Assembly (NCBI GenBank): GCA_903825305.1
Contig: CAIKAC010000023.1
Location: 208,464-272,463, forward strand
Reading direction: 5' to 3'
Origin: an uncultured Actinomycetes bacterium
GTDB lineage: Bacteria; Actinomycetota; Acidimicrobiia; Acidimicrobiales; RAAP-2
Length of the DNA: 64,000 nucleotides
The notes under the pieces are model-generated. The model ran no database searches and had not been told where the DNA came from. It saw only the letters and a list, made by a program, of their open reading frames with translations. Positions 46,273-62,891 of this stretch are shown here, one piece after another. Each line of letters starts with the position of its first letter. Positions within the stretch are counted from its first letter, which is position 1. The position numbers and the translations under genes were made by a program.

Positions 46273-46305
46273 CCACGAGGCCCCACCAACGGTGGGGCCT
46301 CGTGG
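46273..46305. terminator. Bidirectional terminator
   Basis: CCACGAGGCCCCACC (46273-46287), loop AAC, GGTGGGGCCTCGTGG (46291-46305): a perfect 15-bp GC-rich stem between convergent genes. It has no U-tract on either side, but its place and strength fit a terminator. Confidence 0.8.
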
Positions 46306-46329
46306 ACATTCAGAAATGTACTGACGTCG

Positions 46330-47166
46330 CTATTTCTGAGACATACCTGCATCGACAGGAATCTTCGCTGCGGTAATAAAGCGAGCTTCATCGGAACCCA
46401 AGAACAGCACCGCGTGACTGATCTCTATTGAGTCAATCCACGGGACCGGAATCAAGTTCATGGCCGTGGCCGATTCCACCATGTCTTCTTTGGTCACTTC
46501 GCGGTCCAAGTCAGGCCGGAATGCTTGGCGGGTCGACTGGTTGTTAATCATGTCCGTATCGATGTTCGTTGGGTGAATGGTATTGACGCGGATCATGTGA
46601 GGTGCAACCTCAATGGCACAGGTTCGCGCCAAACCGACGAGACCGTGTTTCGCAGACACGTAGTGCGGAATAGCAGCCAGTCCCTTAAGGCCACCCGTAG
46701 AGCTGATGAACATAATGGAGCCACCATTTCCAGCCGCAATCATGTGATTAACCGTTGCCTTATAGGTGTGCCATACGCCAGTCAGGTTGATATCAATCAC
46801 GTCTTGCCACATGGACTCTTCCATCTGGTCGGTCATGGCAAACGATGCGATGCCAGCATTGGCCACCACGATGTCAAGCCGGCCGAACTCGGCAAATCCG
46901 GCATCTGCGGCAGCCTTGAGTGCATCAAAGTCGCGAACGTCTGCTTTGAATATCAGCATTTTGCGACCCAGCGCCTCTACTTGACGCTTGGTTTCCTCAA
47001 GGTCAGCCATCGTCCCCATTGGATACTGAATGGAATCGACGTCTTCGCAGATGTCGATACCGATGATGTCAGCCCCCTCACCGGCCAAGCGAACCGCGTG
47101 ACTGCGTCCTTGGCCTCGGGCTGCACCCGTAATAAACGCAACTTTTCCTTCAACTCTTCCAGCCAT
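46330..47166 (-). CDS. Mycofactocin-coupled SDR family oxidoreductase
   Basis: A 278-residue short-chain dehydrogenase. The N-terminus M-A-G-R-V-E-G-K-V-A-F-I-T-G-A-A-R-G-Q-G with R-S-H-A-V-R-L-A and G-I-D-I-C is the TIGR03971 type, in which NAD stays bound and mycofactocin takes the electrons. Catalytic residues: Asn-Ala-Gly, Ser in F-I-S-S-T-G-G and Y-V-S-A-K. These enzymes oxidise alcohols. The mycofactocin genes (mftA-F) are not in the window. It follows the P450 by 52 bases with a GGAGGGG ribosome binding site. Confidence 0.88.
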   Translation of the reverse strand: MAGRVEGKVAFITGAARGQGRSHAVRLAGEGADIIGIDICEDVDSIQYPMGTMADLEETKRQVEALGRKMLIFKADVRDFDALKAAADAGFAEFGRLDIVVANAGIASFAMTDQMEESMWQDVIDINLTGVWHTYKATVNHMIAAGNGGSIMFISSTGGLKGLAAIPHYVSAKHGLVGLARTCAIEVAPHMIRVNTIHPTNIDTDMINNQSTRQAFRPDLDREVTKEDMVESATAMNLIPVPWIDSIEISHAVLFLGSDEARFITAAKIPVDAGMSQK

Positions 47167-47218
47167 TACCCCTCCAAGTTTTTTGCTGATGTGTTGTTGA
47201 CCCTAGATCAAAACAAAA

Positions 47219-48418
47219 TCACGTGCTCCACTTCAACGGAAGCCCACGAAGTGACAACTGCCCGCCTCGTTCGCGAATTTCACTTAACGGCACAGCCAAC
47301 TCATAGTTGGGAATCACCTTGTGCCATTCTTCGAGTGCTACGCGCATCTCCATGCGCGTTAAGTGACTGCCCATGCAACGGTGTGGGCCAGCCCCAAAGG
47401 CCAAGTGGTTGTTCTTGGCTCGGTCAATGATCACCTCGTCGGCGTTCTCGAAAGCGTCCTCATCATGGGTTGCGGAAACCAGTACGAGTTGGACCATTTG
47501 TCCGGCCTTCATCTCCACGCCATGGAAATTGATGTCTTCTCGAACCTTGCGGCCATCCATCACGAGCGGATACGCCCGAAGAAACTCTTCATTCGCAGAC
47601 GGGATGAGCTCGGGATTGTCAATAATGCGCTGACGATCTTCGGGGTGGGTTGCCAGATGCAAGAACGCGTAACCCAGTTGCGACTTCACGGTGTCAAGAC
47701 CGGCAAGCACCAGCTGGTTGAACATGTTGAGGACGTCGTCGTCGGAAATAGGTTCGCCTTGGATGGTCGAATTCATCACGAACTGCAGGAAGTCTTTATC
47801 AGGGTCCCGAGGATTCGCATGACGCGCTGCCAACTCTGGCTCAAAGAAATCGCGAATCTCTTTCATGGCTGCCAAGGTGTCATCCATCGTGCAGCCATCA
47901 AGACCAAAGATGCCATTGAAGATCGTGTCGGAAATCCGAGCGAACTTAGGCTGCAACTCCCATGGGTAGTTGATCATTTCAAGGAAAATGCGCACCGGGA
48001 ATACACCGGCAAATGCCTCGTTGAACTCGCATCCGCCCTGATCCTTCAGCGACTCAGCAATGGATCGCGCGTATTCACGTGCCATCGGCTCAAATTTCTC
48101 AACGGCTTTGGGACCGAACGCTTTGTTGAGGATTTGACGGTACTCAACGTGCTTAGGTGCCTCGGTATTGCCAGGAATCCATTTGAATTCTGGATTCGGC
48201 TCATTGGGGGTAATCGATTCTGAAGAGAACACCGCTCCGTTTTGGAAAATCTCGCGCACATAATCTGCTTTGAGAACAATCCAGTACCCAGGATCCTCAT
48301 TCCAAAAGATTGGAGACTCTGCCCGCATCCCCTTGAATTCTTTAATCAAGGTGCCGGTGGGCTGCTCCAAATTGATATTGCCGTGGAAAACCGGGCAACC
48401 AGAAACTGATTCCGCCAT
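47219..48418 (-). CDS. Cytochrome P450 (first of three)
   Basis: A 399-residue soluble bacterial P450 that hydroxylates a hydrophobic substrate. I helix L-A-G-L-D-T-V-K-S-Q, ExxR in E-E-F-L-R, and haem motif F-G-A-G-P-H-R-C-M-G with the thiolate Cys. Start ATG 48418 has GGGGGAG seven bases upstream; the open frame begins five codons earlier. It is more distant from the two P450s at 60-63 kb than they are from each other. The mycofactocin-type SDR follows, so a hydroxylation then alcohol oxidation sequence is likely. Confidence 0.93.
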   Translation of the reverse strand: MAESVSGCPVFHGNINLEQPTGTLIKEFKGMRAESPIFWNEDPGYWIVLKADYVREIFQNGAVFSSESITPNEPNPEFKWIPGNTEAPKHVEYRQILNKAFGPKAVEKFEPMAREYARSIAESLKDQGGCEFNEAFAGVFPVRIFLEMINYPWELQPKFARISDTIFNGIFGLDGCTMDDTLAAMKEIRDFFEPELAARHANPRDPDKDFLQFVMNSTIQGEPISDDDVLNMFNQLVLAGLDTVKSQLGYAFLHLATHPEDRQRIIDNPELIPSANEEFLRAYPLVMDGRKVREDINFHGVEMKAGQMVQLVLVSATHDEDAFENADEVIIDRAKNNHLAFGAGPHRCMGSHLTRMEMRVALEEWHKVIPNYELAVPLSEIRERGGQLSLRGLPLKWST

Positions 48419-48486
48419 TGTGAACTCCCCCATGTTCTACGACTCACGCACAGCGCTGTCTGAATGGCACCATGTGCCTATTCATG

Positions 48487-48515
48487 AGCATAATCAGCAT
48501 GAATTGGCTGGTCAA
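48487..48515 (-). promoter_or_regulatory. Promoter of the P450-SDR operon
   Basis: Minus strand TTGACC (48515-48510), 17 bases, TATGCT (48492-48487). A good sigma-70-like promoter about 70 bases before the P450 start, located just after the amidohydrolase stop. Confidence 0.6.
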
Positions 48516-48520
48516 ACTCC

Positions 48521-49888
48521 CTAAGAAATCTCCACGGGCGCTTCGCGACCGGCCATCAAAGTCCATGCCACTCGCTCGGGAACGGCTCTGTCTCCAAGTT
48601 CCAACAAACACCAATCTGCATCGGTCCTCGCCTCGCCGGAGAGTGCGTCTGCGCTAAGGAGTCGCGCCGCCACCCAAGGAGCTATGCATTCTTGGTCTCC
48701 AAGCACAATCCCAGACCTCGTCCTTCTCGTACTTGCTGCCCTCATGATGTCAACTGGGTCACGTGAGCTGTAGGGCGCATCTGAGCTCAGCGCTACGGAG
48801 ATACCGGCGGATAGCAGCGACCCAAGTGGCCACCATCTTGAAGCTTCATCGAATCCTGCTTCCTCGATGTAGCGGTCCCCTCGCTCGGCTATGAAACCCG
48901 GCTGAGTAACTACCTGAAGGCCGAGCCTCGAAATCCAAGCCACGAGATCGGCGTCTAACACTGCCCCATGTTCCACTCGGTCCCCGACTACAACCCCAGC
49001 GAGTTCGAAGGCGCTGAGTGCCACCACGGCCTGCACTTGGGTTACGCAGTGCACCGCGATATTTCTCTCTTTTCGATGAGCTTGGATGATGACATCTGCC
49101 AGACTTCCGATGTCCGGCAACGAGACATCGTCAAGCACTACTTTCATGGGGCCCAAAAAGAAATTGACTGGCTGATAGTCCGTATCGGCATCGGCCATAC
49201 ACACGATGCGCTGCGACAGGCCCGACTCCCCTACCCATGTATCGAAGTCAGCGAGTTCGCGATCCCCCAAACCTGGCGTCGTCTCAGTCACACCGGCGAC
49301 ACCTTGTTCAAGCCATTGCTGGCCAAGGTGGTGCGCTGACATCGACTGACGCGGGAGGCGCGCCATCCAAGAGTCGGCGCGAAATAATTGGCCATTGGGT
49401 TCGCCATCAGCATCGAACTCCATAAATGAGTTGGACATTCCAAGCATCGTTAACTCTTCAAGGCCAACGGAATTCACCACCCACATCGCCCCACTGGCGT
49501 GTTCAACTCGTATCGAATGGTTCATACTGAGTGCGTCAAGCCTTGCCTTGTCAAGGTAGCCACAATGAGATTCGTGATATCCCGATATTCGAATCCACTC
49601 GTTGTGTGGCGTCTCGGAAATTCGTTGCCTCACTGCAGCAGTAAAAAGATCGGGACTGGTCACGACGTCCGGCCCAACGTCAAGAGAAAAGGCTCTCGCT
49701 ACGGTTGCCCTCACATGGCAATGGTGGTCATGGAAGGCCCGGCTGAGTACTAAACCCTGGGCATTGAGCGACAAATCGTATTCCGAGCTTGCCGGAAGTA
49801 ATTTCCCATGCTCAATGATCACGTCTTCTACGCGAGATTGACCGTCATGCATCCACCCCACGTCAATATTGCTTAGAAGTACCCGCAC
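48521..49888 (-). CDS. Amidohydrolase family 3 (YtcJ-like) protein
   Basis: A 455-residue metal-dependent hydrolase. Metal-site pattern D-H-H-C-H-V near residue 54-59, Lys in G-P-M-K-V-V-L-D-D, H-C-V-T-Q, R-V-E-H-G-A, and Asp in L-S-S-D-A-P-Y-S-S-R-D-P. Family members hydrolyse C-N bonds in formamides or cyclic amides; the substrate is unknown. ATG at 49888. It lies between the SDR/desulforedoxin operon and the P450 operon, 33 bases after the former, so read-through is possible. Confidence 0.83.
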   Translation of the reverse strand: MRVLLSNIDVGWMHDGQSRVEDVIIEHGKLLPASSEYDLSLNAQGLVLSRAFHDHHCHVRATVARAFSLDVGPDVVTSPDLFTAAVRQRISETPHNEWIRISGYHESHCGYLDKARLDALSMNHSIRVEHASGAMWVVNSVGLEELTMLGMSNSFMEFDADGEPNGQLFRADSWMARLPRQSMSAHHLGQQWLEQGVAGVTETTPGLGDRELADFDTWVGESGLSQRIVCMADADTDYQPVNFFLGPMKVVLDDVSLPDIGSLADVIIQAHRKERNIAVHCVTQVQAVVALSAFELAGVVVGDRVEHGAVLDADLVAWISRLGLQVVTQPGFIAERGDRYIEEAGFDEASRWWPLGSLLSAGISVALSSDAPYSSRDPVDIMRAASTRRTRSGIVLGDQECIAPWVAARLLSADALSGEARTDADWCLLELGDRAVPERVAWTLMAGREAPVEIS

Positions 49889-49921
49889 ACAAACCTCACT
49901 GATCTCGCCCTTGGCGAGAAT

Positions 49922-50071
49922 CTAGTCAGAGGATGGGAGAGGCTTGGCGGACTGCAATTCCATGTCAACGCCGTGGCAACGGAATCGCCCATCGCCCTTT
50001 TTTACGCACATGACAACGGTGTTGCACGTGCCGCAGGTGTAGCGCTTACCAACTTGATTGCTCTCACTCAT
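49922..50071 (-). CDS. Desulforedoxin-like small protein, variant with Cys-His
   Basis: A 49-residue protein (MSESNQVGKRYTCGTCNTVV start). Cys13-x2-Cys16-x15-Cys32-His33 follows exactly the spacing of desulforedoxin (C-x2-C-x15-C-C), but the last Cys is replaced by His33. The following G-V-D-M is also like desulforedoxin. A rubredoxin-like iron or zinc site with three Cys and perhaps one His is likely. ATG 50071 has GAGAGG upstream, three bases after the SDR stop, so it is the last gene of the operon. Confidence 0.75.
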   Translation of the reverse strand: MSESNQVGKRYTCGTCNTVVMCVKKGDGRFRCHGVDMELQSAKPLPSSD

Positions 50072-50074
50072 GAT

Positions 50075-50926
50075 CTACCTCTCGCCGTGGGCGCTTCGAC
50101 GCCCACCTTCCAACATGCCAATGGGTTCTGAATAATCGCCAGTCGCAAAGGGAGAGTCCCCTGGGGCGCTACACATTCCGGCGTCGACTTCCAAAGAAAT
50201 TCCCGTAACCAACGACGCATCGTCACTACACAGATAAAGCGCTCCAGCGGCAATATCTTCAGGCATACCGACTCGACCCATGAGGGAAAAATCGGCCAGC
50301 GCGTCTTTGGCGCCTTCTAAGTCATGAGGGTCACCCTTGACGATGTCGGCCGTCATGGCCGACAAAATAGCTCCCGGGATAATGGCATTGACCCTGATTC
50401 CTTTTGGTCGCAACTCTGCAGCCACGGAGCGTGTCAGCCCCAACACAGCGGCCTTGGCAGCTGAATAGGCATGGGCTCCGACGCCACCTACGAGTCCAGC
50501 GGGTGACGAGGTGGTCAAGATAGCTCCCGTGCGACGAGGTTCCATGACCCGTGCTGCGTGCTTCATGCCATGGAAGGCGCCTCGCAAGATCACCGCAAAG
50601 GTCATGTCTACGTCGGACATTACCGACTTCGAGATTGGACCCAATGCCCCCATGATGCCAGCGTTGTTAAACATGATGTCAAGCTGACCAAATTCAGCCA
50701 CCGCGGTGTCAACGGCATTGGCCATGTCGGCCTCTACGGTCACATCAGTTCGAACAAACCGAGTGCCAGCCCCAAGGCGTTCGCAAAGTGCGCGACCTTG
50801 TTCCTCTTGCACATCGGCAATCACCACACGCGCACCTTCGGCCACAAATCGTTCGACACTGGCTGCACCAATACCCGAGCCACCACCTGTAATCACAGCG
50901 ACGCGGCCCTCGAGCCGTCGAGTCAT
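50075..50926 (-). CDS. Short-chain dehydrogenase/reductase
   Basis: A classical SDR of 283 residues: cofactor motif T-G-G-G-S-G-I-G, N-N-A-G, active-site Ser in T-S-S-P-A and Y-S-A-A-K, and the usual I-P-G-A end region. A C-terminal extension of about 30 residues is Gly/Ser/Arg-rich. The frame opens at 50947, but ATG 50926 overlaps the NTF2-like stop in ATGA, which fixes the start. It is flanked by the NTF2-like gene and the desulforedoxin-like gene. A steroid or terpene alcohol substrate is possible by context. Confidence 0.9.
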   Translation of the reverse strand: MTRRLEGRVAVITGGGSGIGAASVERFVAEGARVVIADVQEEQGRALCERLGAGTRFVRTDVTVEADMANAVDTAVAEFGQLDIMFNNAGIMGALGPISKSVMSDVDMTFAVILRGAFHGMKHAARVMEPRRTGAILTTSSPAGLVGGVGAHAYSAAKAAVLGLTRSVAAELRPKGIRVNAIIPGAILSAMTADIVKGDPHDLEGAKDALADFSLMGRVGMPEDIAAGALYLCSDDASLVTGISLEVDAGMCSAPGDSPFATGDYSEPIGMLEGGRRSAHGER

Positions 50927-51387
50927 GGTGTCACCTCGGCTGGCCAACCTTCACGAGAATCAACGACTCGAGTAATGCCAATACGCTTGAAGCAGTACCT
51001 CGCGACACCATCTTCTATACGGAATTCGTCGTCGTAACTTCCCCAGCCAATGATTGACGTGTCGACACCTGAAGCGAAATACAACAGATATGAACGAATG
51101 TCGACCCTGCCGCCTCCGTGAGCTGTGATCGCCAAGTTGGTGTGGAAATGGACTTTCACCGTTGGATCATCGGCGAATGCCTGAGTATAGAAACCAAGAA
51201 TCGCATCCACGCCTTCGAAGCGCGCCCCTGGCACTTCCAGGACGGCATCGCTGGTAAAGAGTTCAGGGATTTTGGAAAGATCTTGAGCGTCCATGGAATC
51301 TACATAGCCGCGCAATGTTGCCTGGGCAGCTTGGGCGTCTTCAAGGCGCTGAATGCGCTCCCCAAGGTCGAGGTCGTTAGTTGCCAC
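50923..51387 (-). CDS. NTF2-like (SnoaL_4) family protein
   Basis: A 154-residue protein of the NTF2-like fold with an N-terminal L-E-D-A-Q-A-A-Q-A-T-L-R-G-Y helix, L-F-T-S-D-A-V-L-E-V-P-G, and H-F-H-T-N-L near the middle. Members include hydratases, isomerases and binding proteins; the catalytic residues cannot be fixed here. GTG start at 51387 overlaps the upstream small gene by 11 bases, and its stop overlaps the SDR start. Confidence 0.78.
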   Translation of the reverse strand: MATNDLDLGERIQRLEDAQAAQATLRGYVDSMDAQDLSKIPELFTSDAVLEVPGARFEGVDAILGFYTQAFADDPTVKVHFHTNLAITAHGGGRVDIRSYLLYFASGVDTSIIGWGSYDDEFRIEDGVARYCFKRIGITRVVDSREGWPAEVTP

Positions 51388-51520
51388 CTTGGCCTCCCGG
51401 CGCGAAGGTCACCACCGGCTCCTGGCTACAACACTCAAGACTGGCATCACCTGAGTTGACCACGATGGCTTCGGAGCCACAGGATTCGCATCGGATTCGA
51501 GTTCCGGATTCATACTGCAT
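51377..51520 (-). CDS. Desulforedoxin-like small protein
   Basis: A 47-residue protein beginning MQYESGTRIRCESCGSEAIV. Cys11-x2-Cys14-x15-Cys30-Cys31 is exactly the desulforedoxin pattern for one iron (or zinc) bound by four Cys. ATG 51520 has GGGGG eight bases upstream; an ATG at 51535 is also possible. First gene of the four-gene operon, overlapping the NTF2-like gene by 11 bases. It is divergent from the acyl-CoA ligase. Desulforedoxin domains are best known from anaerobes, so its role here is open. Confidence 0.75.
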   Translation of the reverse strand: MQYESGTRIRCESCGSEAIVVNSGDASLECCSQEPVVTFAPGGQGGN

Positions 51521-51559
51521 CGATTGCGCCCCCATTCTCAGCCGCCCACGCAGCTGTGA

Positions 51560-51588
51560 TTGCAATTGAACCATATCATTCGTATAGT
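51560..51588 (+). promoter_or_regulatory. Promoter of the acyl-CoA ligase operon
   Basis: TTGCAA (51560-51565), exactly 17 bases, TATAGT (51583-51588). The spacer contains ATCATTCGT, which also occurs next to the thiolase promoter at 59.9 kb. Confidence 0.7.
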
Positions 51589-51640
51589 TTCGAGGTCAGG
51601 CCATTTGGGGGGCTGCCAACAAGCGCTAGGAGGGGTAGGG

Positions 51641-53245
51641 ATGGCTACATCCACGGGGCAACCAAGAACCCTCCCTTCGACGGCGCTCGAATTCTTTGAT
51701 GAGTCTGTTCGTCGAAATGCCTCTGCGATCTTCACCAAGTATTTCGAAACCGAGATGACCTATGGAGAGATGGACGTGCGCAGCACAGCGCTCGCAGCTC
51801 GTCTTCGCAGCCGAGGAGTTGCGGCCGGAGATCGTGTAGGCATCTACTTGCAGAACACCCCTGCTTGGTGTGCCATCGCCCTCGCAGTGTGGAAGCTTGG
51901 CGCCATTGTGGTTCCTGTAAACCCCATGTACAAAGTCCCAGAAGTCATGAAAATTGTCGATGATGCTGGCTTGGTCGCCCTCTTTGGCCATCCGGAACTT
52001 CTTGACGATGAGATGGCGACGGCGCTTCAGGACCACGGTGTTTCCTCTCTCGTATCTTGCGACCCTTGGGCCCCAGGAGCTGAAGTCCTTGGCCTTGGAT
52101 TCGAACCTTTTCACCCGCAGGTCGCTGATATCGAAAATCTTGCTGACCTTTGGGCGCCAGGCGACGAGGAATTTGAGCGTTCCCCCATCGACGGCGAGTC
52201 AATTGCGGCTTTGATTTACACCTCGGGAACGACCGGTCCCCCTAAAGGTTCGATGTCGAGCCACGGCGCACTCAGCTTTAACACTGCTACGTATCGTGAT
52301 TGGATGAACTTGGATGGCGACGATGTCGTACTGTGCGTTGCGCCCTTGTTTCACATCACCGGGCTGGTCGGCGGCTTCTTGATCGCCGCGCTCCTTGGAT
52401 CGCCGTTGGTGTTGACCTATCGATTTGACCCCGAGATGATTCTTGACGTCATTGAGAGTACTCAGGCAAGTTTCACAATCGCATCAATTACGGCTTTCAC
52501 TGCCCTCATGCACAGCCCTGGTGCGGCACAATCAGATTTGAGCAGCTTGCGCACTATTTACTCAGGTGGGGCTCCGATCATGCCCTCAACTCTTGAAGGG
52601 TTTCACAGTACGTTTGGCCACTACATCCATAACATCTACGGCCTCACTGAAACGAATTCGCCGACCCATGCCGTTCCCTTGGGAGCGGCTGCACCGGTTG
52701 ACCCCGACACCGGGGCGATCTCGGTTGGACAATGCATATTCGAAACTTCGATGCGTGTCATCGATGACACAGGCCAAGAGCTTCCAATCGGTGCAGTTGG
52801 AGAAATCAGCGTTCGCGGACCACAGTTGTTCTCCGGATATTGGAACAAACCACAAGAGACCGCTGGGGTCATGATTGATGGATGGTTTTCAACTGGTGAC
52901 ATCGGCTACGTCGATGAGGCTGGTTGGTGCTACGTCATTGATCGCAAAAAGGATCAGATCAATGTCTCGGGATACAAAGTGTGGCCCCGTGAAGTCGAAG
53001 ACGTGCTCACCAGCCACCCAGCAGTGTTGGAAGCAGCTGTTGTTGGCGTACCGGACGAGTACCGAGGAGAATCGGTAAAGGCATTTGTCAGCCTTCGTTC
53101 CGGTCAGGTGATCGACGAAGCTTCCCTCATCGAATTTTGCAAGGCCTCCATGGCTGCATACAAGTACCCGCGCTCCATCGAGATCGTGAGTGAAATACCA
53201 AAAACTGCAACGGGGAAAATTCTTCGCCGAGCACTGCGTTCTTGA
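51641..53245 (+). CDS. Fatty-acyl-CoA ligase / AMP-dependent synthetase (ANL family)
   Basis: A 534-residue adenylating enzyme that activates a carboxylic acid as CoA thioester. P-loop-like motif L-I-Y-T-S-G-T-T-G-P-P-K-G, A5 region Y-G-L-T-E-T-N, W-F-S-T-G-D-I-G-Y, hinge D-R-K-K-D-Q-I-N-V-S-G-Y-K-V, W-P-R-E-V-E-D-V-L and the C-terminal catalytic Lys in P-K-T-A-T-G-K-I-L-R-R. ATG 51641 has AGGAGGGG nearby. It heads a plus-strand operon with two SDRs. The substrate could be a side-chain acid made by the P450s, but this is inference. Confidence 0.92.
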   Translation: MATSTGQPRTLPSTALEFFDESVRRNASAIFTKYFETEMTYGEMDVRSTALAARLRSRGVAAGDRVGIYLQNTPAWCAIALAVWKLGAIVVPVNPMYKVPEVMKIVDDAGLVALFGHPELLDDEMATALQDHGVSSLVSCDPWAPGAEVLGLGFEPFHPQVADIENLADLWAPGDEEFERSPIDGESIAALIYTSGTTGPPKGSMSSHGALSFNTATYRDWMNLDGDDVVLCVAPLFHITGLVGGFLIAALLGSPLVLTYRFDPEMILDVIESTQASFTIASITAFTALMHSPGAAQSDLSSLRTIYSGGAPIMPSTLEGFHSTFGHYIHNIYGLTETNSPTHAVPLGAAAPVDPDTGAISVGQCIFETSMRVIDDTGQELPIGAVGEISVRGPQLFSGYWNKPQETAGVMIDGWFSTGDIGYVDEAGWCYVIDRKKDQINVSGYKVWPREVEDVLTSHPAVLEAAVVGVPDEYRGESVKAFVSLRSGQVIDEASLIEFCKASMAAYKYPRSIEIVSEIPKTATGKILRRALRS

Positions 53246-53280
53246 ACTAAACAAACAGATAGACAATCCAAGGGGGAATC

Positions 53281-54084
53281 ATGAAATTGGAAAACAAAGT
53301 TGCCGTTGTCACCGGTGGAACTCGCGGTATCGGTCGAGCGATCACCGAAGCATTTCTCTTGGAGGGCGCTTCAGTTGTGGTCTCGGGTCGTGACGCGACC
53401 AAAGGCGCAGTTGCCATTGGCGAACTCACGCAGCTGCTTGCGAGCAACAACCTTCCCGTGGATCGAGTTCACTTTGTTCCTGGTGACGCCCGACTTCAAG
53501 CTGACACGGAGGCACTGATCGATGAGTCCACGGCCAAGTTCGGTCAGGTCGACATCTTGGTTAATAATGCAGGAGGCTCAAGCGGCTTCGCGCTCATTGG
53601 GGATCTCAGTGATGATGCTTGGAATGAGGCAAACAACTGGGTACTGAACTCGACCTTCTGGGCGAGTCGTCGCGTGTTGAACGGCATGAAGGACCGTGGA
53701 TTTGGCCGCATCATCAACATTTCCTCTCTTGAGTCCAAGACCGTTCAAACCCCAATGGCCGGTCACTACAGCGTCTTTAAGGCTGCCGTCAATGCTCTTG
53801 GTCGAGCCATCACCGCCGAATATGGGCCCTATGGCATCACGGCCAACTCCATCTGCCCCGGGGCAGTCGAAACCGACTTGATGAAAACCACGGGTCGCGA
53901 CTCCGCAGCGGCGATGGGTATCTCCTACGAAGAGTTCCTTGACTCATACGCGCAGCAAACGTTGACCAAGAAGATCAACACCGTCGAAGAGTGCGCTGCA
54001 GTCGCCGTATTGCTTGCTTCCAACGCAGGCGCGGGTATTGCTGGAACGACCATCAACGTTGATGGTGGAACGTCGCCGTTCTAG
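53281..54084 (+). CDS. Short-chain dehydrogenase/reductase (FabG-like)
   Basis: A 267-residue SDR: T-G-G-T-R-G-I-G cofactor motif, N-N-A-G-G, Ser in I-S-S-L-E and Y-S-V-F-K, P-G-A-V-E-T and D-G-G-T-S-P-F end. It most likely oxidises or reduces a beta-hydroxyacyl-CoA or alcohol. It follows the ligase by 35 bases and precedes the next SDR by 20. Confidence 0.9.
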   Translation: MKLENKVAVVTGGTRGIGRAITEAFLLEGASVVVSGRDATKGAVAIGELTQLLASNNLPVDRVHFVPGDARLQADTEALIDESTAKFGQVDILVNNAGGSSGFALIGDLSDDAWNEANNWVLNSTFWASRRVLNGMKDRGFGRIINISSLESKTVQTPMAGHYSVFKAAVNALGRAITAEYGPYGITANSICPGAVETDLMKTTGRDSAAAMGISYEEFLDSYAQQTLTKKINTVEECAAVAVLLASNAGAGIAGTTINVDGGTSPF

Positions 54085-54104
54085 ATACGGCCTACTCTGA
54101 ACTC

Positions 54105-54866
54105 ATGAGCACTCCATTTTTTTCACTCGAAGGCAAAGTCTGCGTTATCACCGGAGCTTCATCAGGTTTCGGCGTAGCCTTCGCTGATCGTCTGGCTCGG
54201 GCGGGCGCTGACATTGCCTTGGGGGCACGACGAGTAGAGCGCCTCGAAGAGACGAAGAAGCTCGTTGAGTCTTACGGCCGTCGGGCCCTGGCGATGTATT
54301 TGGACGTAACTGATCCTGAAAGTTGTGAGGCGTTTGCTCAAGCCACGTTCGAAGAGTTCGGCCACCTCGACGTGCTGGTGAATAACGCAGGGGTCGGAAC
54401 ATCAGTTCCAGCAATCCGCGAAACCCCTGAGCAGTTTTCTTCAGTCGTCGAGACCAATCTTCACGGTAGTTACTGGATGAGCCAATCCTGTGGCCGACTC
54501 ATGCAGCCCGGAAGTTCCATTATCAACATCGGCTCAGTACTTGGCGTGACCACCGCTGGCCTGCCGCAAGCGGCTTACGCCGCGTCAAAGGCCGGCATAA
54601 TCGGCTTGACTCGAGACTTAGCCCAACAATGGGCCACGCGTCGAGGTATTCGCGTCAATGCCATCGCGCCGGGCTACTTCCCTACCGAGATGACGTCTGA
54701 GTACTCCCCGGAATACCTCGAGAAAATTCGATCCACGCGAGTCCCTATGGATCGAATGGGGCAACTCGAAGAGTGTGCAGCCGGCGTTCACTTCCTCGCG
54801 AGCGATGACGCCAGTTTCATCACGGGAATTTTGCTTCCCATCGATGGTGGCCTCTTAACGACCTAA
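54105..54866 (+). CDS. Short-chain dehydrogenase/reductase
   Basis: A 253-residue SDR: T-G-A-S-S-G-F-G with Phe in place of the usual Ile, N-N-A-G-V-G, Ser in I-G-S-V and Y-A-A-S-K, P-G-Y-F-P-T-E, and I-D-G-G-L-L-T-T. It completes the ligase-SDR-SDR operon. Its stop is four bases from the stop of the convergent APH-like gene. Confidence 0.9.
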   Translation: MSTPFFSLEGKVCVITGASSGFGVAFADRLARAGADIALGARRVERLEETKKLVESYGRRALAMYLDVTDPESCEAFAQATFEEFGHLDVLVNNAGVGTSVPAIRETPEQFSSVVETNLHGSYWMSQSCGRLMQPGSSIINIGSVLGVTTAGLPQAAYAASKAGIIGLTRDLAQQWATRRGIRVNAIAPGYFPTEMTSEYSPEYLEKIRSTRVPMDRMGQLEECAAGVHFLASDDASFITGILLPIDGGLLTT

Positions 54867-54870
54867 GAGC

Positions 54871-55899
54871 TCACCAGTCCCAGTGGCGGAGCCCTTGATC
54901 AAAGAGCGCGTGAGCCTTGGCCCGAAACTCCATGCCAACATCTTGCTCAACGAGGCCAGCCTTGGCTCTTGCATGGGTCCCCTCAAGCAAAACTCCTAAG
55001 CGCAGACACGCGAGGGCGTAGTACCAGTCCAGGTCTTCAATGCTTCTCGCCGATACCTGCTCGTAATGGGCCACAAGTTCTTGGGCAGTTGCCAGTCCTG
55101 GCGCAGCAAACACCACCGTCGGCGAATTCCTGCCAGATTTACGAGGCCAGGTGGCCAATAATTCGGCTAGATCGAGAAGTGGATCGCCAAAAGTTGCGAG
55201 TTCCCAATCAATGATGGCCGCCACCTGGGGGTGAGTCCGAGAGACCAGGGTGTTGGCGACGTGGTAATCCCCATGAATCATGCCTGGCTGGAACGAAACG
55301 TGCTCCCGACTTCTGAGCAGGGCAACGAGGTCGTCAAGCGAAGCCGACTCAGCCCCCTGCCACCCTTCGAAGCGCTCGTATCGCTCAAGTTGTCCCAACC
55401 AGCGATCAACTTGGCGCTGAGGCCAACCCGCAACTCGGTCCTGACTGCCAAGTCCGACTGCAATTCCGTCGACCTGGGCCAATGGTGCAATGGCGTCAAC
55501 AAAACTCAATGAGAGGGCTCGCAAGGCCTCAGGGTCGTCCACCCAAGGGGGCGGTTCTGTCGTGATGCCTACCCCCTCGATAGTGATCATCAAGAAAAAT
55601 GCCGATCCAATCACGGATTCATCGGCACACACATGAAGTAATCGTGGATGCGGCACGTCGCTCTGGCTCAAGATTTCAAGAATGCCAGCTTCTCGCAAAA
55701 TAGATGCTTGGTGTTCTGGGGTGGCGTGGAGGGGAGGTCGTCGAAGTACCGCATCAAAGCCTTCGCGCATCACTCGCACCACGATGTTTTGCGTACCTCC
55801 CGCTAACGGGATGAGCGTTACGTCACCTTGGCCACAACCCATCCCGTCAAGCCACGATGTCAACGCCACAGCGTCTACGCCAGGCACTGATGTGGTCAT
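54871..55899 (-). CDS. APH-like phosphotransferase (ACAD10/11-type kinase domain)
   Basis: A 342-residue kinase-fold protein: catalytic loop M-I-H-G-D-Y-H-V-A-N and metal motif I-I-D-W-E-L-A-T-F-G-D-P-L-L-D-L. Proteins of this group are found with acyl-CoA dehydrogenases and, in ACAD10/11, phosphorylate 4-hydroxyacyl-CoAs. An acyl-CoA substrate is likely, not an antibiotic. The ATG overlaps the CoA-transferase stop by four bases. Confidence 0.83.
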   Translation of the reverse strand: MTTSVPGVDAVALTSWLDGMGCGQGDVTLIPLAGGTQNIVVRVMREGFDAVLRRPPLHATPEHQASILREAGILEILSQSDVPHPRLLHVCADESVIGSAFFLMITIEGVGITTEPPPWVDDPEALRALSLSFVDAIAPLAQVDGIAVGLGSQDRVAGWPQRQVDRWLGQLERYERFEGWQGAESASLDDLVALLRSREHVSFQPGMIHGDYHVANTLVSRTHPQVAAIIDWELATFGDPLLDLAELLATWPRKSGRNSPTVVFAAPGLATAQELVAHYEQVSARSIEDLDWYYALACLRLGVLLEGTHARAKAGLVEQDVGMEFRAKAHALFDQGLRHWDW

Positions 55900-58244
55900 G
55901 ATGCGCTTGGGGCCTTGATCACTTTCGCTTCGATTAAGGCTGCTACTGCCGCGTCGTCATATCCGAGTTCCGCCAGAATCTCAGCACTGTGGTGACCAAG
56001 AGGTGCCGATGGATCTTGGCGCTTACCTGGGGTGGCGCTGAGCCGACACAACTGACCAACTGTTCGAATCCATCCGTGTTCGAGGTGGTAGCCCTCATAA
56101 ATACGCTCAGTTTCATGACCCCACTCGTCCCAAAGGAATTCACTCATGAGGGGGTAATCAAGTACGACTTCAACCGGGACCCCTGCGCCATCAAGCGCTT
56201 CGAAAGCTTGTTGGGCGCTCATTGCTGCGAAACCACCTGCGAGGTAGGACGTGAGACCCTCGGGATCGCCGTCGCGCCCACGTTGATCTGAGAATCGTGC
56301 ATCAGGCTCTAGATGCAGGGCCGTTATCAGGGATGCGAATTTTTCATCTCCAAAGACTGCAATGGAAACCCACCCGTCGCTGCACTGGTAGTTGCGATAG
56401 GTCGGCGAGTAACCCGTTTGATCGTGATTGAGCATCAGGGCATTTGCGGGATTGCCATCTAGGTCAGTCGCGAGTTCTGTTCGCACCAAAAGACTCGAGT
56501 TCAAGTGGGGAGCTTCGAGGTACTGGCCCTCTCCTGTCTTTTCCCGGTGATAGAGACCAAGGAGCGCTGCGATAGCCCCGGAGAAACCGTTGTAGAGGTC
56601 TTCGTTGCCGATGACTCGACGAACTGGCGGATTGTTTTCTCCAGCCCCAGAATAGAGGTGCCCCGTGAAGCCAGATACCAAAGGCGCAAAACTCTTCAGG
56701 TTCATCATGGGGCCGCTGGAGCCAAAACCCGGCAAGTAGCAGTACACGATATTGGGATTAATGGCCTTGACCTGCTCGTAACCAAATCCAGCCTTCTCGG
56801 CCTTTCCGGGACGCTGATTGTGCATCAAGACATCAGCTGTCTTGATGAGTTCCAGCAACACCTTCATGCCATCTTCGCTTTTCGTGTTCAGCGCCAAGTT
56901 CCGCTTCCCGCGGTTTCCGCCCTCATAGAGATCCTTCAAGGGTCGCATCTGGTCACCGAAGACCGGCTCAACTTTGATGACGTCAGCACCAAGGTCGGCT
57001 AACAACTTCGCGCCAAACGCGGTAGCAAAGAAGCCCGAGAGATCCAACACCCGTACTCCCTCAAGGGGGTGTGTTGGGGTTGACGCCGACGCCGTGGGGG
57101 CGAGCTCAAGGCGACCCTCGAGCAAATGTGTCAGCTCAGCGTTGTTGGCCCCGACTGAGGGTGCCCCCTTGGGATCAGGTGCAGGTGTCTTGTCGAAGAG
57201 CAAGGTGGGGCCAATTTGGCGAAGGGTGCTGCCGTCATCAGCCACGACGTCTTTAATCAGCTTGGAGTGCACCAACTGAGGTTCCTCGAAGATTTCGTGA
57301 GGGCGGAGCACTGGCAAGGCAGCAAGGTCAGCTTCATGAAGCAACGCAATCCATTCAGCTCGCGACTTCGTTTTGAATGCTTCTGGCACCAATTCTCGGG
57401 CCGCGTGGTATTCCTCATCGTTGAGTGGCACCGCCATTTCCAGACCATCAATCGTCTGAACGTGCTCTCCTAGTCCCAAAATATCCATGGTGCGTTTAAA
57501 CCCGCCATCACCACCGGTGTGATTCATCAAGTATTCGCCGTCACCGCAGACAAAGAGATCGGTGATGAGCCGATTACGACCAAAGCCAGTTTCTTCTCCT
57601 TCGCGAGCGAGATAACTAAAGCCTTGCTCGTGCCACCACCAGTTCATGAGATTGGCAGCAAGTGCTCCATCAAGCAACGTCGCATCAATGTATTGGCCCT
57701 TGCCATCAAGGAAGCGAGTTCGAAGTGCCGCCAAAATCGAAATAACACCAAGAAAAGATGAGCAATATTCGACAACAGGGTGTCCAAGAAAGTGCGGGGC
57801 GTCACTGAATCCCTCTTGTTCGCTCATCATCCCAAATCGAGCTTCGATCAAGTTGGCAAAACCGGGCCGATCTTTGAGCGGGCCATCGTGGCCATAGCCC
57901 GTTACCGATGCATAGACCAAGCTGGGATTCACTCCGTGGAGCTGTGCAAAGTCAAGTTCACGTTCTGCAGCACGACCCGGACCCATGGCCTCGATGACGA
58001 CGTCAGCATGCTGCAACAGCAACTGCATGGTTGATGAACCCGCCTCCATTTCGAGGTCAAGTTCAATGGACCACTTGCCACGATCCCAAGTTGATCTCGT
58101 GGGGTCGGAGCGATGTGCTCCCTCACCTGGCCGCTCTATTTTGATGACTTGCGCCCCATAGTCAGAGAGCAACATACCCATGATGGACGCAGGAGCCCCC
58201 CATCCGATTTCATAGACACGCAGACCATTCAACGGACCAGCCAT
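55896..58244 (-). CDS. Fused double CaiB/BaiF-family CoA-transferase
   Basis: A 782-residue protein with two class III CoA-transferase units in tandem (about 1-378 and 393-782), joined by an Ala/Pro/Thr linker. Each starts with P-L-x-G-x-R-V, and has the L-L-x-D-Y/L-G-A-x-V-I-K-x-E motif. The second half keeps the catalytic Asp (Asp549 in N-E-D-L-Y-N-G). In the first half the same place is Glu159 (P-V-V-E-Y-C-S-S). So one active site per chain is likely, or the first half has a structural role. A typical enzyme is a dimer of single units of about 400 residues. Followed by the APH-like gene with overlap. Confidence 0.9.
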   Translation of the reverse strand: MAGPLNGLRVYEIGWGAPASIMGMLLSDYGAQVIKIERPGEGAHRSDPTRSTWDRGKWSIELDLEMEAGSSTMQLLLQHADVVIEAMGPGRAAERELDFAQLHGVNPSLVYASVTGYGHDGPLKDRPGFANLIEARFGMMSEQEGFSDAPHFLGHPVVEYCSSFLGVISILAALRTRFLDGKGQYIDATLLDGALAANLMNWWWHEQGFSYLAREGEETGFGRNRLITDLFVCGDGEYLMNHTGGDGGFKRTMDILGLGEHVQTIDGLEMAVPLNDEEYHAARELVPEAFKTKSRAEWIALLHEADLAALPVLRPHEIFEEPQLVHSKLIKDVVADDGSTLRQIGPTLLFDKTPAPDPKGAPSVGANNAELTHLLEGRLELAPTASASTPTHPLEGVRVLDLSGFFATAFGAKLLADLGADVIKVEPVFGDQMRPLKDLYEGGNRGKRNLALNTKSEDGMKVLLELIKTADVLMHNQRPGKAEKAGFGYEQVKAINPNIVYCYLPGFGSSGPMMNLKSFAPLVSGFTGHLYSGAGENNPPVRRVIGNEDLYNGFSGAIAALLGLYHREKTGEGQYLEAPHLNSSLLVRTELATDLDGNPANALMLNHDQTGYSPTYRNYQCSDGWVSIAVFGDEKFASLITALHLEPDARFSDQRGRDGDPEGLTSYLAGGFAAMSAQQAFEALDGAGVPVEVVLDYPLMSEFLWDEWGHETERIYEGYHLEHGWIRTVGQLCRLSATPGKRQDPSAPLGHHSAEILAELGYDDAAVAALIEAKVIKAPSAS

Positions 58245-58280
58245 GAGTCACATTTCCTTTTCTAGATCAGTAGGAGTTCG

Positions 58281-58691
58281 CTACGCGCTTAAACGAAACG
58301 TTGGGAGCGTGTGGGTTTCAAAGACGGTTGGCGACAACTCCACTCGGCTGCCTATTGCCACTGAGTCTTGATCATCACCAACGAGAACGGTCACGAGACG
58401 AGCATTGTCGACGTCATCAAGCGCGACCAGTATCAGGGTGTACGGCGGCTCGGAGCCAAAGGGCAGGAACGCGCGTTCCACCTTCGAAAAGGTAAATACC
58501 GTGCCCGTGTGAGCCACCTCTCGCCAATGCCGAGTTGCCTCGGGGTGGCAAGCAAATCCGGGAACCGGATACCACTGAAACGCACCACACACCGAACAGG
58601 CCGGCAGTCGCAATTCTCCTTGGTCAGTCGCCTCCCAGAAAGGATTAGTGAGGTCTATGTCGCGAGGTGGCGGAAAGTTGGGAACGCTCAT
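58281..58691 (-). CDS. DUF35 OB-fold/zinc-ribbon protein, thiolase partner
   Basis: A 136-residue protein with an N-terminal helix, a rubredoxin-like ribbon (Cys32, Cys35, Cys48) and a C-terminal OB fold (about 55-136). The usual fourth Cys is absent; His49 follows Cys48. These proteins bind thiolase-like enzymes and acyl-CoA, for example with Ltp2. The ATG overlaps the thiolase stop by four bases (58688-58691), as expected for a complex. Confidence 0.88.
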   Translation of the reverse strand: MSVPNFPPPRDIDLTNPFWEATDQGELRLPACSVCGAFQWYPVPGFACHPEATRHWREVAHTGTVFTFSKVERAFLPFGSEPPYTLILVALDDVDNARLVTVLVGDDQDSVAIGSRVELSPTVFETHTLPTFRLSA

Positions 58692-59827
58692 CGATCCTCC
58701 GTTAGTACCAAAGTTGCGTGATCATTGCCACCAAGACCCCCAATTGCACACACGCTCTTGCGCGACACTTGGGCGTCACCGCGTTCGCCTCGTACTTGGC
58801 GAACTGCTTCCACTACGTGGTTCATGCCTGGCAAGTAGGAGTAACAGAGGTGACCACCGTTGGTGTTGATCGGGAACGAACCACCAGGGCCAATCCGGTC
58901 CAGCGAACAAAATGCTGCACCCGCACCACGCTCAGCAAATCCCATTTCCTCTAGTTGGAGCACCATGGAGATGCTGAAGCAGTCATATATTTGAGCGAAA
59001 TCGACGTCCTTGGCACTGATGCCCGCCTTTGCATAAGCCATGGCTGACGACTCAAGTGCACCGAAGCGAAGTGGGTCGGGTCGATTTTGACTAAAGATCG
59101 AGCCCATCGTCATCTCGGTAGATCCCACCCCGACGCCGCCGACTAGTACCGGTGCCTTTGCTAAGTCTCGAGCTTGTTCAACCGAGCTGATGACATAGGC
59201 AGCCCCCCCATCTGAAATCAGACAGCAGTCCAAGGTTCGCATAGGAGTCGCCACCATGGGGGCTTCGAAATAGCCATCACGCGTTAATGGCTTGGCTTTT
59301 TGTGCACCGGGCGTCAGTTGAGCCCATGCCCTCGCCGATAAAGCAATGTCAGCGAAGGTGGCCGGATCTACGTTGTAATCGTGACAGTAACGTTGCGCCC
59401 ACATAGCGAAGTACACCGGCTGGCCATACCAGCCAAAGGGCATCTCAAAGGCCGCCTTGACCGGATCTTCAGCGTGATACGAGTAAGGGCCACCGGGTTT
59501 CGACCCCTTGTACCCGAAGTACACCAAGACATTCTTGGCGAGCCCCTTCTCAATCATCATTTCCGCCAACAGCGCGGCGCCAACTGTTCCTGCTCCCGCT
59601 TCAAGTCCAGGCTTGACGGTGAAAGATCGTTTTGCGCCAAGTGATGCGGCGAGTTCGTCTGCAGCGGGATGAGGCGTACAGGGCACAAACCCATCAATGT
59701 CATGTCCTTGAAGGCCGGCGTCCGCGATAGCGAGCCGACAGGCGTCCAAGATGAGCTCATCAAGTGGCCGATCGACACTTCGACCCCACTCGGACTCGCC
59801 AACCCCCACAATTGCCACCGATGCCAT
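58688..59827 (-). CDS. Thiolase-like lipid-transfer protein, probable Ltp2-type retro-aldolase
   Basis: A 379-residue thiolase-fold protein lacking the nucleophilic Cys (the usual place reads L-E-A-G-A-G-T-V-G-A-A). Where thiolases have G-H-P-x-G, this has C-Y-S-Y-L-P-G (Tyr329, Tyr331); Y-D-C-F is at 281-284. Tyr in place of His and no Cys are hallmarks of the Ltp2 group, which with DUF35 cleaves a C-C bond in steroid side-chain degradation. The partner DUF35 gene follows with overlap. ATG 59827 has a GGGGGGAG ribosome binding site; the open frame begins 12 codons earlier. Confidence 0.88.
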   Translation of the reverse strand: MASVAIVGVGESEWGRSVDRPLDELILDACRLAIADAGLQGHDIDGFVPCTPHPAADELAASLGAKRSFTVKPGLEAGAGTVGAALLAEMMIEKGLAKNVLVYFGYKGSKPGGPYSYHAEDPVKAAFEMPFGWYGQPVYFAMWAQRYCHDYNVDPATFADIALSARAWAQLTPGAQKAKPLTRDGYFEAPMVATPMRTLDCCLISDGGAAYVISSVEQARDLAKAPVLVGGVGVGSTEMTMGSIFSQNRPDPLRFGALESSAMAYAKAGISAKDVDFAQIYDCFSISMVLQLEEMGFAERGAGAAFCSLDRIGPGGSFPINTNGGHLCYSYLPGMNHVVEAVRQVRGERGDAQVSRKSVCAIGGLGGNDHATLVLTEDR

Positions 59828-59876
59828 CGGCTTCTCCCCCCGGTGCGGGTCTACATAGACCACGCGTTACTAAGCG

Positions 59877-59905
59877 AACCTATATTCATGCTGATCATTC
59901 GTCAA
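59877..59905 (-). promoter_or_regulatory. Promoter of the thiolase-DUF35-CoA-transferase-kinase operon
   Basis: Minus strand TTGACG (59905-59900), 17 bases, TAGGTT (59882-59877), with an overlapping TATAGG alternative. About 50 bases before the thiolase start. Confidence 0.65.
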
Positions 59906-59940
59906 GTTTCCGTGACAAGGAATTGCGCCGGGAAAAGAAG

Positions 59941-59968
59941 AAATCCCCGGCCAATCGGCCGGGGATTT
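59941..59968 (-). terminator. Terminator after the ferredoxin gene
   Basis: AAATCCCCGGCC (59941-59952), loop AATC, GGCCGGGGATTT (59957-59968): a perfect 12-bp stem. Minus-strand reading continues with CTTCTTTTCCC. It separates the P450-ferredoxin operon from the thiolase operon. Confidence 0.85.
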
Positions 59969-59989
59969 CGTTCTAGATCACGCTCGGTA

Positions 59990-60187
59990 CTAGCCGACGA
60001 TAGAGATGCACCCTTCTGGGCATGCCTCTAGGCCAATGCGAGCCTTCTCTTCGAGTTCTGCAGGAACGTCGAATTCCGTACCGCGCTGAACGACGAAACC
60101 TTCGTCATCAGCGGTGTACACCTCGGGGGCCAGCACGTAGCAGCGGCCGTGTCCGGAGCAGAGGGCCTCATTGATCGCAATGCGCAT
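59990..60187 (-). CDS. [3Fe-4S] ferredoxin, P450 electron donor
   Basis: A 65-residue ferredoxin starting MRIAINEALCSGHGRC. It carries Cys10-x2-His-x2-Cys16, then Cys56-P-E-G-Cys60, the actinobacterial P450-type pattern for a [3Fe-4S] cluster where the second Cys is replaced by His. It lies 53 bases after the second P450 with its own AAAGGTG ribosome binding site, so it probably feeds electrons to the P450s here. No ferredoxin reductase is present in the window. Confidence 0.93.
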   Translation of the reverse strand: MRIAINEALCSGHGRCYVLAPEVYTADDEGFVVQRGTEFDVPAELEEKARIGLEACPEGCISIVG

Positions 60188-60240
60188 GGAACTACACCTT
60201 TCGTTGGTTGAAATGAATCAGATTGGAGACAGTGAAATGC

Positions 60241-61452
60241 TTAGATGTCCCAGCGTACCGGGATGGAGTTCACGCCACGTTGACCACCGTGTTCGGTAAG
60301 GGGCTCAGTGTTCGTCAATTCGTAGTTTGGAATGGCCTTGTGCCACTCTTCGATCGCGATGACCAACTCCTGGCGGGCAAGGTGAGAGCCCATGCAGCGG
60401 TGTGCGCCCGGCCCAAAGGCCAAGTGCTTGTTATTTTGGCGATCAATGATGAACTTGTCCGCCTCAGGGAAGGCCTCGGGGTCGCGGCATGACTGAGCCA
60501 AGTCCAGCAACACCATTTCACCCTTCTTCATGGGGCATCCTGCAAACTCCACGTCCTTGCCGAGCTTTCTAGCCGGCTGAACGATGGTGTAGTAGCGAAG
60601 CGACTCTTCTACAAAGCTTGGGATGAGACTGGGGTCATCCAAGATCCGCTGACGATCTTCTGGGAAGGTTGCCAAGTGGTAGAAGCTGTAACCCAATTGG
60701 CACTTCATCGTGTCAAGGCCGGCCAAGATGATCACACCCAAGATGTTGAGCAAGGTCTCCTGCGTCAAGGGTTCTCCGTTGAAGGTGCATGTCAGCAGGT
60801 GCGAAGTCAGGTCAGTGCTTGTGTCGCGCGGATTAGCACGGCGATCATCAAGCAGCTTCGCGAAGTATTCACTGATTTCCCCGGCGGCAGCCGCCTGAGC
60901 ACTGTGATCGTCAGGGTTTGACATCTGATCGAAAATGGTTGTGACCAACTCCACCATGCGGGGTGCGTCTTTTTGGTCGAAGCCGGCGAGCGCAAAGAAG
61001 GCCCGAGTGGGGAACTCGCCACAGAACTCGTGAGCCAAGTCGCAACTCCCCTTGGCCTTGAGCTCTTCAATGATCTTTCGGGCGATCTCACGGTTCTGCT
61101 CTTCGCGCTTAGCAACATTGGCCGGCGAGAAATAACCATTCAAAAGACGTCGGTACTGGGTGTGGTCTGGACCATCGACCAAGGTTGGGATCCACATGTA
61201 CTGCGGGTTTGGGTCAACCGCGATGATGGATTCCGACGTGAAGGTTTCGTAGTCTTGATAAGCAGCGCGCTGATCATCAAAACGAGTAACCACCCAGAAA
61301 CCTTGCCCGAAGGTGTTCCAAACCGCCGGGGCCAATTCCCTCATCTCGTCAAGTTCTTGAAAGTATCCACCAACAGGTTGGTTGCGACTGTTGTCGAAGT
61401 GCACGACGGGGCACGTATCGGGAACGTGGGTGGGAACTTCTGACATGGTCAT
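60241..61452 (-). CDS. Cytochrome P450 (second of three)
   Basis: A 403-residue P450: I helix L-A-G-L-D-T-M-K-C-Q, ExxR in E-E-S-L-R, haem motif F-G-P-G-A-H-R-C-M-G. It is very similar over its whole length to the next P450 (61637-62848), including W-I-P-T-L-V-D-G-P and G-G-Q-R-G-V-N-S-I-P-V-R-W, pointing to tandem duplication. ATG 61452 with AGGAG before. It forms an operon with the ferredoxin, driven by the palindrome-containing promoter. Confidence 0.94.
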   Translation of the reverse strand: MTMSEVPTHVPDTCPVVHFDNSRNQPVGGYFQELDEMRELAPAVWNTFGQGFWVVTRFDDQRAAYQDYETFTSESIIAVDPNPQYMWIPTLVDGPDHTQYRRLLNGYFSPANVAKREEQNREIARKIIEELKAKGSCDLAHEFCGEFPTRAFFALAGFDQKDAPRMVELVTTIFDQMSNPDDHSAQAAAAGEISEYFAKLLDDRRANPRDTSTDLTSHLLTCTFNGEPLTQETLLNILGVIILAGLDTMKCQLGYSFYHLATFPEDRQRILDDPSLIPSFVEESLRYYTIVQPARKLGKDVEFAGCPMKKGEMVLLDLAQSCRDPEAFPEADKFIIDRQNNKHLAFGPGAHRCMGSHLARQELVIAIEEWHKAIPNYELTNTEPLTEHGGQRGVNSIPVRWDI

Positions 61453-61585
61453 GGTTCATACTCCTTGCATCTTCGGGAGCCCCACCTTGACGCCCCCACT
61501 AACCCTCAGGTCACCCTGACATCTCCAGCGATGGACGGGCGCTCTCGACTGCTGCCTTGAGCCCCCCTCAACGCCTCACGAATTC

Positions 61586-61614
61586 ATTATTAGCGATTAT
61601 TGACCGCCGGTCAA
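61586..61614 (-). promoter_or_regulatory. Promoter with overlapping palindromic operator upstream of the second P450
   Basis: TTGACCGCCGGTCAA at 61600-61614 is a perfect 15-base palindrome. Its minus-strand TTGACC (61614-61609) is also a -35 box, followed after 16-18 bases by TAATAAT (61592-61586). This looks like a repressor site of TetR or GntR type in the promoter of P450-ferredoxin, about 135 bases before the start. No regulator gene is seen nearby. Confidence 0.65.
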
Positions 61615-61636
61615 GAACACCGAAACTTAGGGAAAC

Positions 61637-62848: not shown

Positions 62849-62891
62849 CGCCCCCCCCAATCTCTTTGGCGCTACCTCGTAATGAAATTAC

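Follow-up and report, generated by a model that had tools for sequence, protein, structure and literature searches.

The desulforedoxin domain itself is already known, and in Desulfovibrio gigas it occurs as a homodimer of 36-residue chains (PDB 1dxg) with a C-x2-C-x15-CC ligand spacing. A Dx domain also forms the N terminus of desulfoferrodoxin (Dx-SOR) and of class III superoxide reductase (SORGOdb, PMC3116461). Two other kinds of small protein bear comparison with the genes described here, namely the LysW/ArgW amino-carrier proteins, Cys4 polypeptides of ~50 residues with a conserved C-terminal tail, and the MbtH-like proteins, which are encoded beside adenylate-forming enzymes. In LysW and ArgW, the C-terminal Glu is the attachment point for amino acids. 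To our knowledge, acyl-CoA ligases and CoA-transferases are generally taken to work alone.

The window (the whole 64,000-nucleotide stretch of DNA that was analyzed) encodes two small proteins of the desulforedoxin type, termed Drx1 and Drx2, within the minus-strand gene order Drx1, SnoaL/NTF2-like protein, SDR, and Drx2 (Table 1). The initial annotation had described these four genes as a tightly coupled operon, and an ORF check reproduced its layout to the base, with an 11 bp overlap of Drx1 and SnoaL, a 4 bp overlap of SnoaL and SDR, and a 3 bp gap between SDR and Drx2; the ligand spacings (C-ES-C-x15-CC in Drx1 and C-GT-C-x15-CH in Drx2) were likewise correct. The strand, left out of the initial annotation, is minus for all four genes. 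Window positions 46300–64000 form a long catabolic island with three P450-like genes (47219, 60241, and 61637), several SDRs, an SCP-x/lipid-transfer-like thiolase (58688–59863), a phosphotransferase, a class III CoA-transferase, and an acyl-CoA dehydrogenase, a gene content that suggests degradation of side chains or alicyclic acids. Neither the one same-genus genome nor any of the same-family genomes searched has Drx genes, and the island was therefore probably acquired horizontally.

Table 1. Features of the Drx locus and the surrounding catabolic genes (positions in the window)
Feature	Position	Strand	Basis
Drx1, 47 aa, desulforedoxin-type	51377..51520	-	PF06397, 26.8 bits vs cut-off 23
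Drx1 ligand span, C-x2-C-x15-C-C	51428-51490	-	
Drx1 alternative in-frame ATG	51574	-	
SnoaL_4/NTF2-like, 154 aa, GTG start	50923..51387	-	PF13577, E 6e-14
SDR oxidoreductase, 283 aa	50075..50926	-	PF13561, E 5e-58; NF005559 above cut-off
Drx2, 49 aa, desulforedoxin-type	49922..50071	-	Identity to Rhodococcus/Nocardia Drx2, profile, Foldseek
Drx2 ligand span, C-x2-C-x15-C-H	49973-50035	-	
Drx2 tail codons KPLPSSD, stop codon immediately after	49925..49945	-	
Amidohydro_3 family protein, first gene beyond Drx2	48521..49888	-	PF07969, E 4e-21
Class III CoA-transferase, double-domain, 782 aa	55896..58244	-	PF02515 in two stretches
Acyl-CoA synthetase, divergent from Drx1	51641..53245	+	PF00501
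Cytochrome P450, same catabolic island	47219..48418	-	PF00067
Second SDR, end of minus-strand gene block	46330..47166	-	PF00106

Both small proteins are desulforedoxin homologues, as the initial annotation had proposed. Drx1 has the four Cys residues of PF06397 (Desulfoferrod_N), exceeds the Pfam cut-off for this family, and is its sole gathering-level match in the host genome (1.94 Mb). Drx2 has a Cys3His site and falls under the same cut-off (15.7 bits versus 23). The fused relatives, described below, likewise lack the four-Cys pattern of this family. The profile of the Drx2 family matches desulfoferrodoxin (PDB 1vzg and 2ji1; E 4e-4) and desulforedoxin (E 1e-3), and an AF2 model of Drx2 (mean pLDDT 75, ~55 in the tail) retrieved 1dxg as its best PDB match (Foldseek probability 1.0; TM 0.60/0.79, with 0.79 by target; E only 0.036), consistent with a desulforedoxin fold. 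A DNA pattern for both motifs matched the genome 38 times, as compared to 23 times for a reversed-pattern control. In Rhodococcus and Nocardia relatives, dN/dS was 0.168 for Drx1 and 0.138 for Drx2, indicating that both small frames are selected as proteins. The occurrence of the two motifs is thus more than chance, on the basis of the motif control, the unique PF06397 match, and the orthologues under purifying selection.

To define the conserved unit, Drx loci were collected from other genomes. A PF06397 search of 61 genomes identified a second genome (G060) in which Drx1 and Drx2 are overlapping neighbors and Drx2 ends in the same unusual tail, KPLPSSD. When 296 genomes of the class were searched with a profile, 59 had Drx at E 0.01 (55 of them at E 2e-6 or below), and a scan of genome contigs yielded 80 Drx loci, which fall into three types. 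Split Cys-type pairs of the window subtype, with Drx2 70–77% identical, are present in Rhodococcus, Nocardia, Gordonia, Amycolatopsis, and one Acidimicrobiaceae bin, with a more distant form (65%) in Desertimonas; the Drx1 orthologues are those of loci L066–L084. Other Acidimicrobiia have split Cys-type pairs that are mostly 49–58% identical. The larger set of relatives, distributed over Actinomycetota, Pseudomonadota, and Binatota, comprises fused proteins of ~100 residues that correspond to Drx1 and Drx2 in that order (hhalign E 1e-11 for the N-terminal half and 1e-24 for the C-terminal half). The model of a fused protein is confident (pLDDT 93.7, pTM 0.82); Foldseek returned no meaningful match for it in the PDB, and the profile comparison was used for its identity instead.

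The Drx1/Drx2 pair is kept in 35 of 40 Cys-type loci; of the five without it, four have a Frankia-type fusion whose first domain lacks Cys. Co-location of the two genes is retained, and their order and spacing vary: they are adjacent in Nocardiaceae, flank a CoA-transferase in L077 (Drx1-CoA-transferase-Drx2), are inverted in L084 (Drx2-Drx1), and are separated by SnoaL and SDR in the window. The conserved unit is accordingly the Drx1/Drx2 pair and not the four-gene operon. Several loci depart from the single-pair arrangement. The host genome itself encodes a second Drx, fused and Cys-poor, directly behind an acyl-CoA ligase (L050 8854–9186; G000:C11:153883–154185). Rhodococcus globerulus NBRC 14531 has three Drx loci, one a split Cys-type pair and two fused (L067, L105, and L124), which makes it a convenient strain for laboratory work, and in Rhodococcus phenolicus the Drx1-Drx2 pair is tandem-duplicated (L071 9842–10719). 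A Chloroflexi bin has tandem Drx genes with CC in both and no recognized CoA genes nearby (L099 1997–2255), possibly near the ancestral state. The contig CAMDCC010000097.1 (L104), labeled Bifidobacterium breve, matches an acidimicrobiial contig of genome G208 at the Drx region, both being 9411 bp, and its label looks wrong.

Neighbors of the window-type loci were next compared. A double-domain class III CoA-transferase of ~780 residues, 45–53% identical to that of the window, is present at 18 of 19 such loci. In most Nocardiaceae loci its gene immediately follows Drx2, and in the window it lies 4.4 kb from the Drx pair; among the 296 genomes of the class only the host genome has it (E 1e-150). 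In contrast, a search of 112 related loci detected no SnoaL homologue, and the SDR encoded ahead of Drx1 in Nocardia is a different paralogue, ~40–44% identical to the window SDR (44% for the nearest). The four-gene order Drx-SnoaL-SDR-Drx was thus not found in other genomes, since SnoaL is absent from the related loci and their SDR is not orthologous. Distant Amidohydro_3 homologues (33–41% identity) occur in many related Drx loci. The SnoaL protein, SDR, amidohydrolase, and P450 of the window may be ordinary pathway enzymes inserted around the Drx pair. The initial annotation had made its proposal depend on a conserved neighborhood in related genomes. Judged in this way, the pair stands, being conserved in aerobic-looking catabolic clusters, while the linkage to SDR and SnoaL fails; the suggestion that Drx acts with one of these two enzymes, neither of which is a conserved neighbor (SnoaL at 0 of 112 loci, SDR at no more than 44% identity), is not supported.

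Among Cys-less loci, the constant neighbor is an acyl-CoA ligase. By tblastn, 34 of the 40 Cys-less loci have a ligase gene immediately next to Drx and in the same orientation (23 downstream, 11 upstream), and this adjacency was seen in Actinomycetota, Pseudomonadota, and Binatota. On Rhodococcus and Sphingobium plasmids, the fused gene is labeled “hypothetical protein” with an AMP-binding enzyme alongside. In a FastTree phylogeny of 105 AMP-binding proteins from Drx loci, almost all of the Drx-adjacent ligases fall into a single group of 64 proteins (support 86), the exceptions being three from Pseudonocardia and one other. Ligases of both the fused and the split types belong to this group, as does that of the Rhodococcus/Nocardia split-Drx clusters. 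Because the loci in the tree had been picked for having Drx, a reverse control was run on the 296 class genomes with the ligase as query and a threshold of >300 bits for a clade-level ligase. Drx was present in 52 of the 53 genomes with such a ligase and in three of the 243 without (Fisher p 4e-53, without phylogenetic correction); this genome-level association is partly phylogenetic. At the level of loci, a fused Drx lies within 1.5 kb of the ligase in 22 of the 30 best ligase loci; the other eight have no Drx within this distance, and seven of those eight genomes have Drx elsewhere. No Drx-ligase fusion protein was seen among the ligase ORFs read. The window has no member of the ligase clade nearby, and the member in the host genome adjoins the fused Drx on another contig (L050/L189). 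The acyl-CoA synthetase divergent from Drx1 was considered as the ligase partner in the window, but the tree does not support this, placing it on a long branch outside the Drx ligase group. In many Acidimicrobiia loci (e.g., L059 11102–12154; c8 members), the Drx and ligase genes are followed by a crotonase-family protein with an N-terminal extension of ~170 residues.

The metal ligands and the C-terminal tail of Drx have had different fates. Split Drx1 proteins have kept CC, and 39 of 42 Cys-type Drx2 matches have CH, in line with the altered ligand set that the initial annotation had noted in one of the two proteins; the CC cases of Drx2 come from two Chloroflexi loci. In Frankia-type fusions the Drx2 site survives and the Drx1 site does not; in most of the remaining fusions the Drx2 site is gone and only two or so Drx1 Cys residues are left. 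The C-terminal sequence KPLP[S/A]SD, with small variants in its first residues, was present in 81 of 81 Drx2 sequences, all ending in [SA]SD, a count biased toward the tail because the scan used the tail itself as pattern. In the independent set derived from the ligase search, 22 of 22 end in LP[SA]SD. The tail is predicted to be flexible, as it is the least confident segment of both the Drx2 and fused models, the N terminus of Drx2 aside. Most relatives have therefore dispensed with the Cys ligands and not with the tail. This makes electron transfer a less likely common function and points to a putative role of the tail in binding or conjugation.

With CoA-ester-forming enzymes as the constant partners, and with the tail kept while ligands were lost, the most likely reading, to which we assign close to an even chance, is that Drx1 and Drx2 form a desulforedoxin-derived heterodimer that acts as an accessory subunit of the CoA-ester-forming step in carboxylic acid catabolism. 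The step served would be that of an acyl-CoA ligase or a class III CoA-transferase. Drx1 and Drx2 would be the two halves of the heterodimer and the fused form a pseudo-dimer, in which the metal (probably Zn, possibly Fe) might merely hold the small fold together. The flexible, conserved tail could dock in or near the CoA-forming enzyme and activate it or set its specificity, in the way that MbtH-like proteins assist adenylation domains. Ligase and CoA-transferase have unrelated folds, so a single docking mode for both is not obvious. In evolutionary terms, we tentatively propose, at somewhat less than an even chance, that duplication of a desulforedoxin founded a family, at first heterodimeric and later fused and metal-free, whose invariant tail serves one acyl-CoA ligase clade (and a class III CoA-transferase) in actinobacterial catabolism as a dedicated activator or covalent carrier.

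Alternative readings give the tail or the metal site a different weight. If Drx were a carrier protein, the carboxylate of its C-terminal Asp would be activated by the adenylate-forming ligase and would hold a substrate or intermediate as in LysW/ArgW, with amidohydrolases as possible release enzymes. Such a role would suit small zinc-ribbon-like proteins with an invariant exact C terminus and an adenylate-forming enzyme as constant neighbor, as well as the frequent amidohydrolases in Drx clusters and the weak LysW-type matches. It is nevertheless unlikely, given that no ATP-grasp ligase was recognized in the neighborhoods read, that profiles class the linked enzyme as an ordinary acyl-CoA ligase, that the LysW similarity is at noise level with Drx2 clearly closer to desulforedoxin, and that the Drx tail ends in Asp rather than Glu or Gly-Gly. 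Somewhat less likely still is a redox role along the lines suggested in the initial annotation, in which a one-iron Drx and its variant pass electrons to a neighbor such as a P450 or SDR. The split forms do have the exact desulforedoxin ligand spacing, and a P450 lies within the window island; however, most fused relatives lack the Cys ligands and yet have the tail, no redox enzyme is a constant neighbor, the fourth ligand of Drx2 is His, and SDRs use NAD(P)H directly. A redox partnership with the SDR or SnoaL protein was discarded as the main reading, since neither protein is conserved next to Drx and relatives have lost the Cys residues.

Catabolic genes can be inherited together without any contact between their products, and the microproteins might be passengers of catabolic islands with no direct tie to the CoA step. 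We consider this improbable: the distribution of Drx is indeed patchy, as its absence from the closest genomes searched illustrates, but dN/dS values of 0.14–0.17, an adjacency that survives order reversal and spans phyla, and the better conservation of Drx2 (70–77% with Rhodococcus/Nocardia) than of the linked CoA-transferase (45–53%) speak against it. A regulatory or stress-sensing pair, with a metal or thiol sensor controlling the cluster enzymes and Cys loss in the fusions representing later reuse, is more improbable again. While no ligand is missing from the split forms and the CC/CH asymmetry holds throughout Actinomycetota, neither protein has a DNA-binding segment, and the metal-free majority has the same genomic partner.

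In Pfam and NCBIfam we did not find the paired and fused family as such, nor its tail or its link with acyl-CoA ligases, and the open literature searched held nothing relevant on desulforedoxin with Rhodococcus, Nocardia, or acyl-CoA ligase, in agreement with the view of the initial annotation that no system of this kind had been described. Drx occurs in cultured Rhodococcus, Gordonia, Williamsia, and Sphingobium, where it is annotated only as “hypothetical protein” in the cases checked. Were the accessory-subunit reading true, a common catabolic activation step would have been studied without one of its parts, and Drx would be an accessory factor of a new type in CoA activation. The family also traces a metalloprotein giving up its metal and keeping its job, from split four-ligand pair through half-degenerate fusions to metal-free fusion, which makes the purpose of the metal in the desulforedoxin fold directly testable.

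Among known systems, desulforedoxin is shared by Drx1 in ligand spacing and by Drx2 in the superposition of its model. Drx differs from it in having two unequal partners rather than a homodimer, in the Cys3His site and additional invariant C-terminal tail of ~10 residues in Drx2, and in its location in actinobacterial catabolic clusters, with fused metal-free descendants. The N-terminal Dx domain of Dx-SOR is homologous to Drx, and class III superoxide reductases likewise keep this domain without its metal ligands. Drx, however, has two Dx domains in tandem, no fused or adjacent superoxide reductase domain, and an acyl-CoA ligase or CoA-transferase as partner; the proteins end at 47–49 residues (~100 when fused), lack the Fe(His)4Cys site of the SOR domain, and match only the N-terminal part of TIGR00320. 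LysW/ArgW proteins resemble Drx in size, Cys content, and conserved tail. They differ in that the sequence match is at noise level (E 0.61), the Drx tail is KPLPSSD with a terminal Asp rather than an EDWGE-type tail with Glu, the metal is dispensable in fused Drx, and no LysX-type ATP-grasp enzyme was recognized in the neighborhoods read. Pfam scans of Drx1, Drx2, and A3 or A5 members gave no MbtH match, and the MbtH-like proteins are unrelated to Drx in fold and sequence. The likeness to MbtH-like proteins is one of analogy only: in both, a small protein, with a putative helper function in the case of Drx, is encoded beside an adenylate-forming enzyme.
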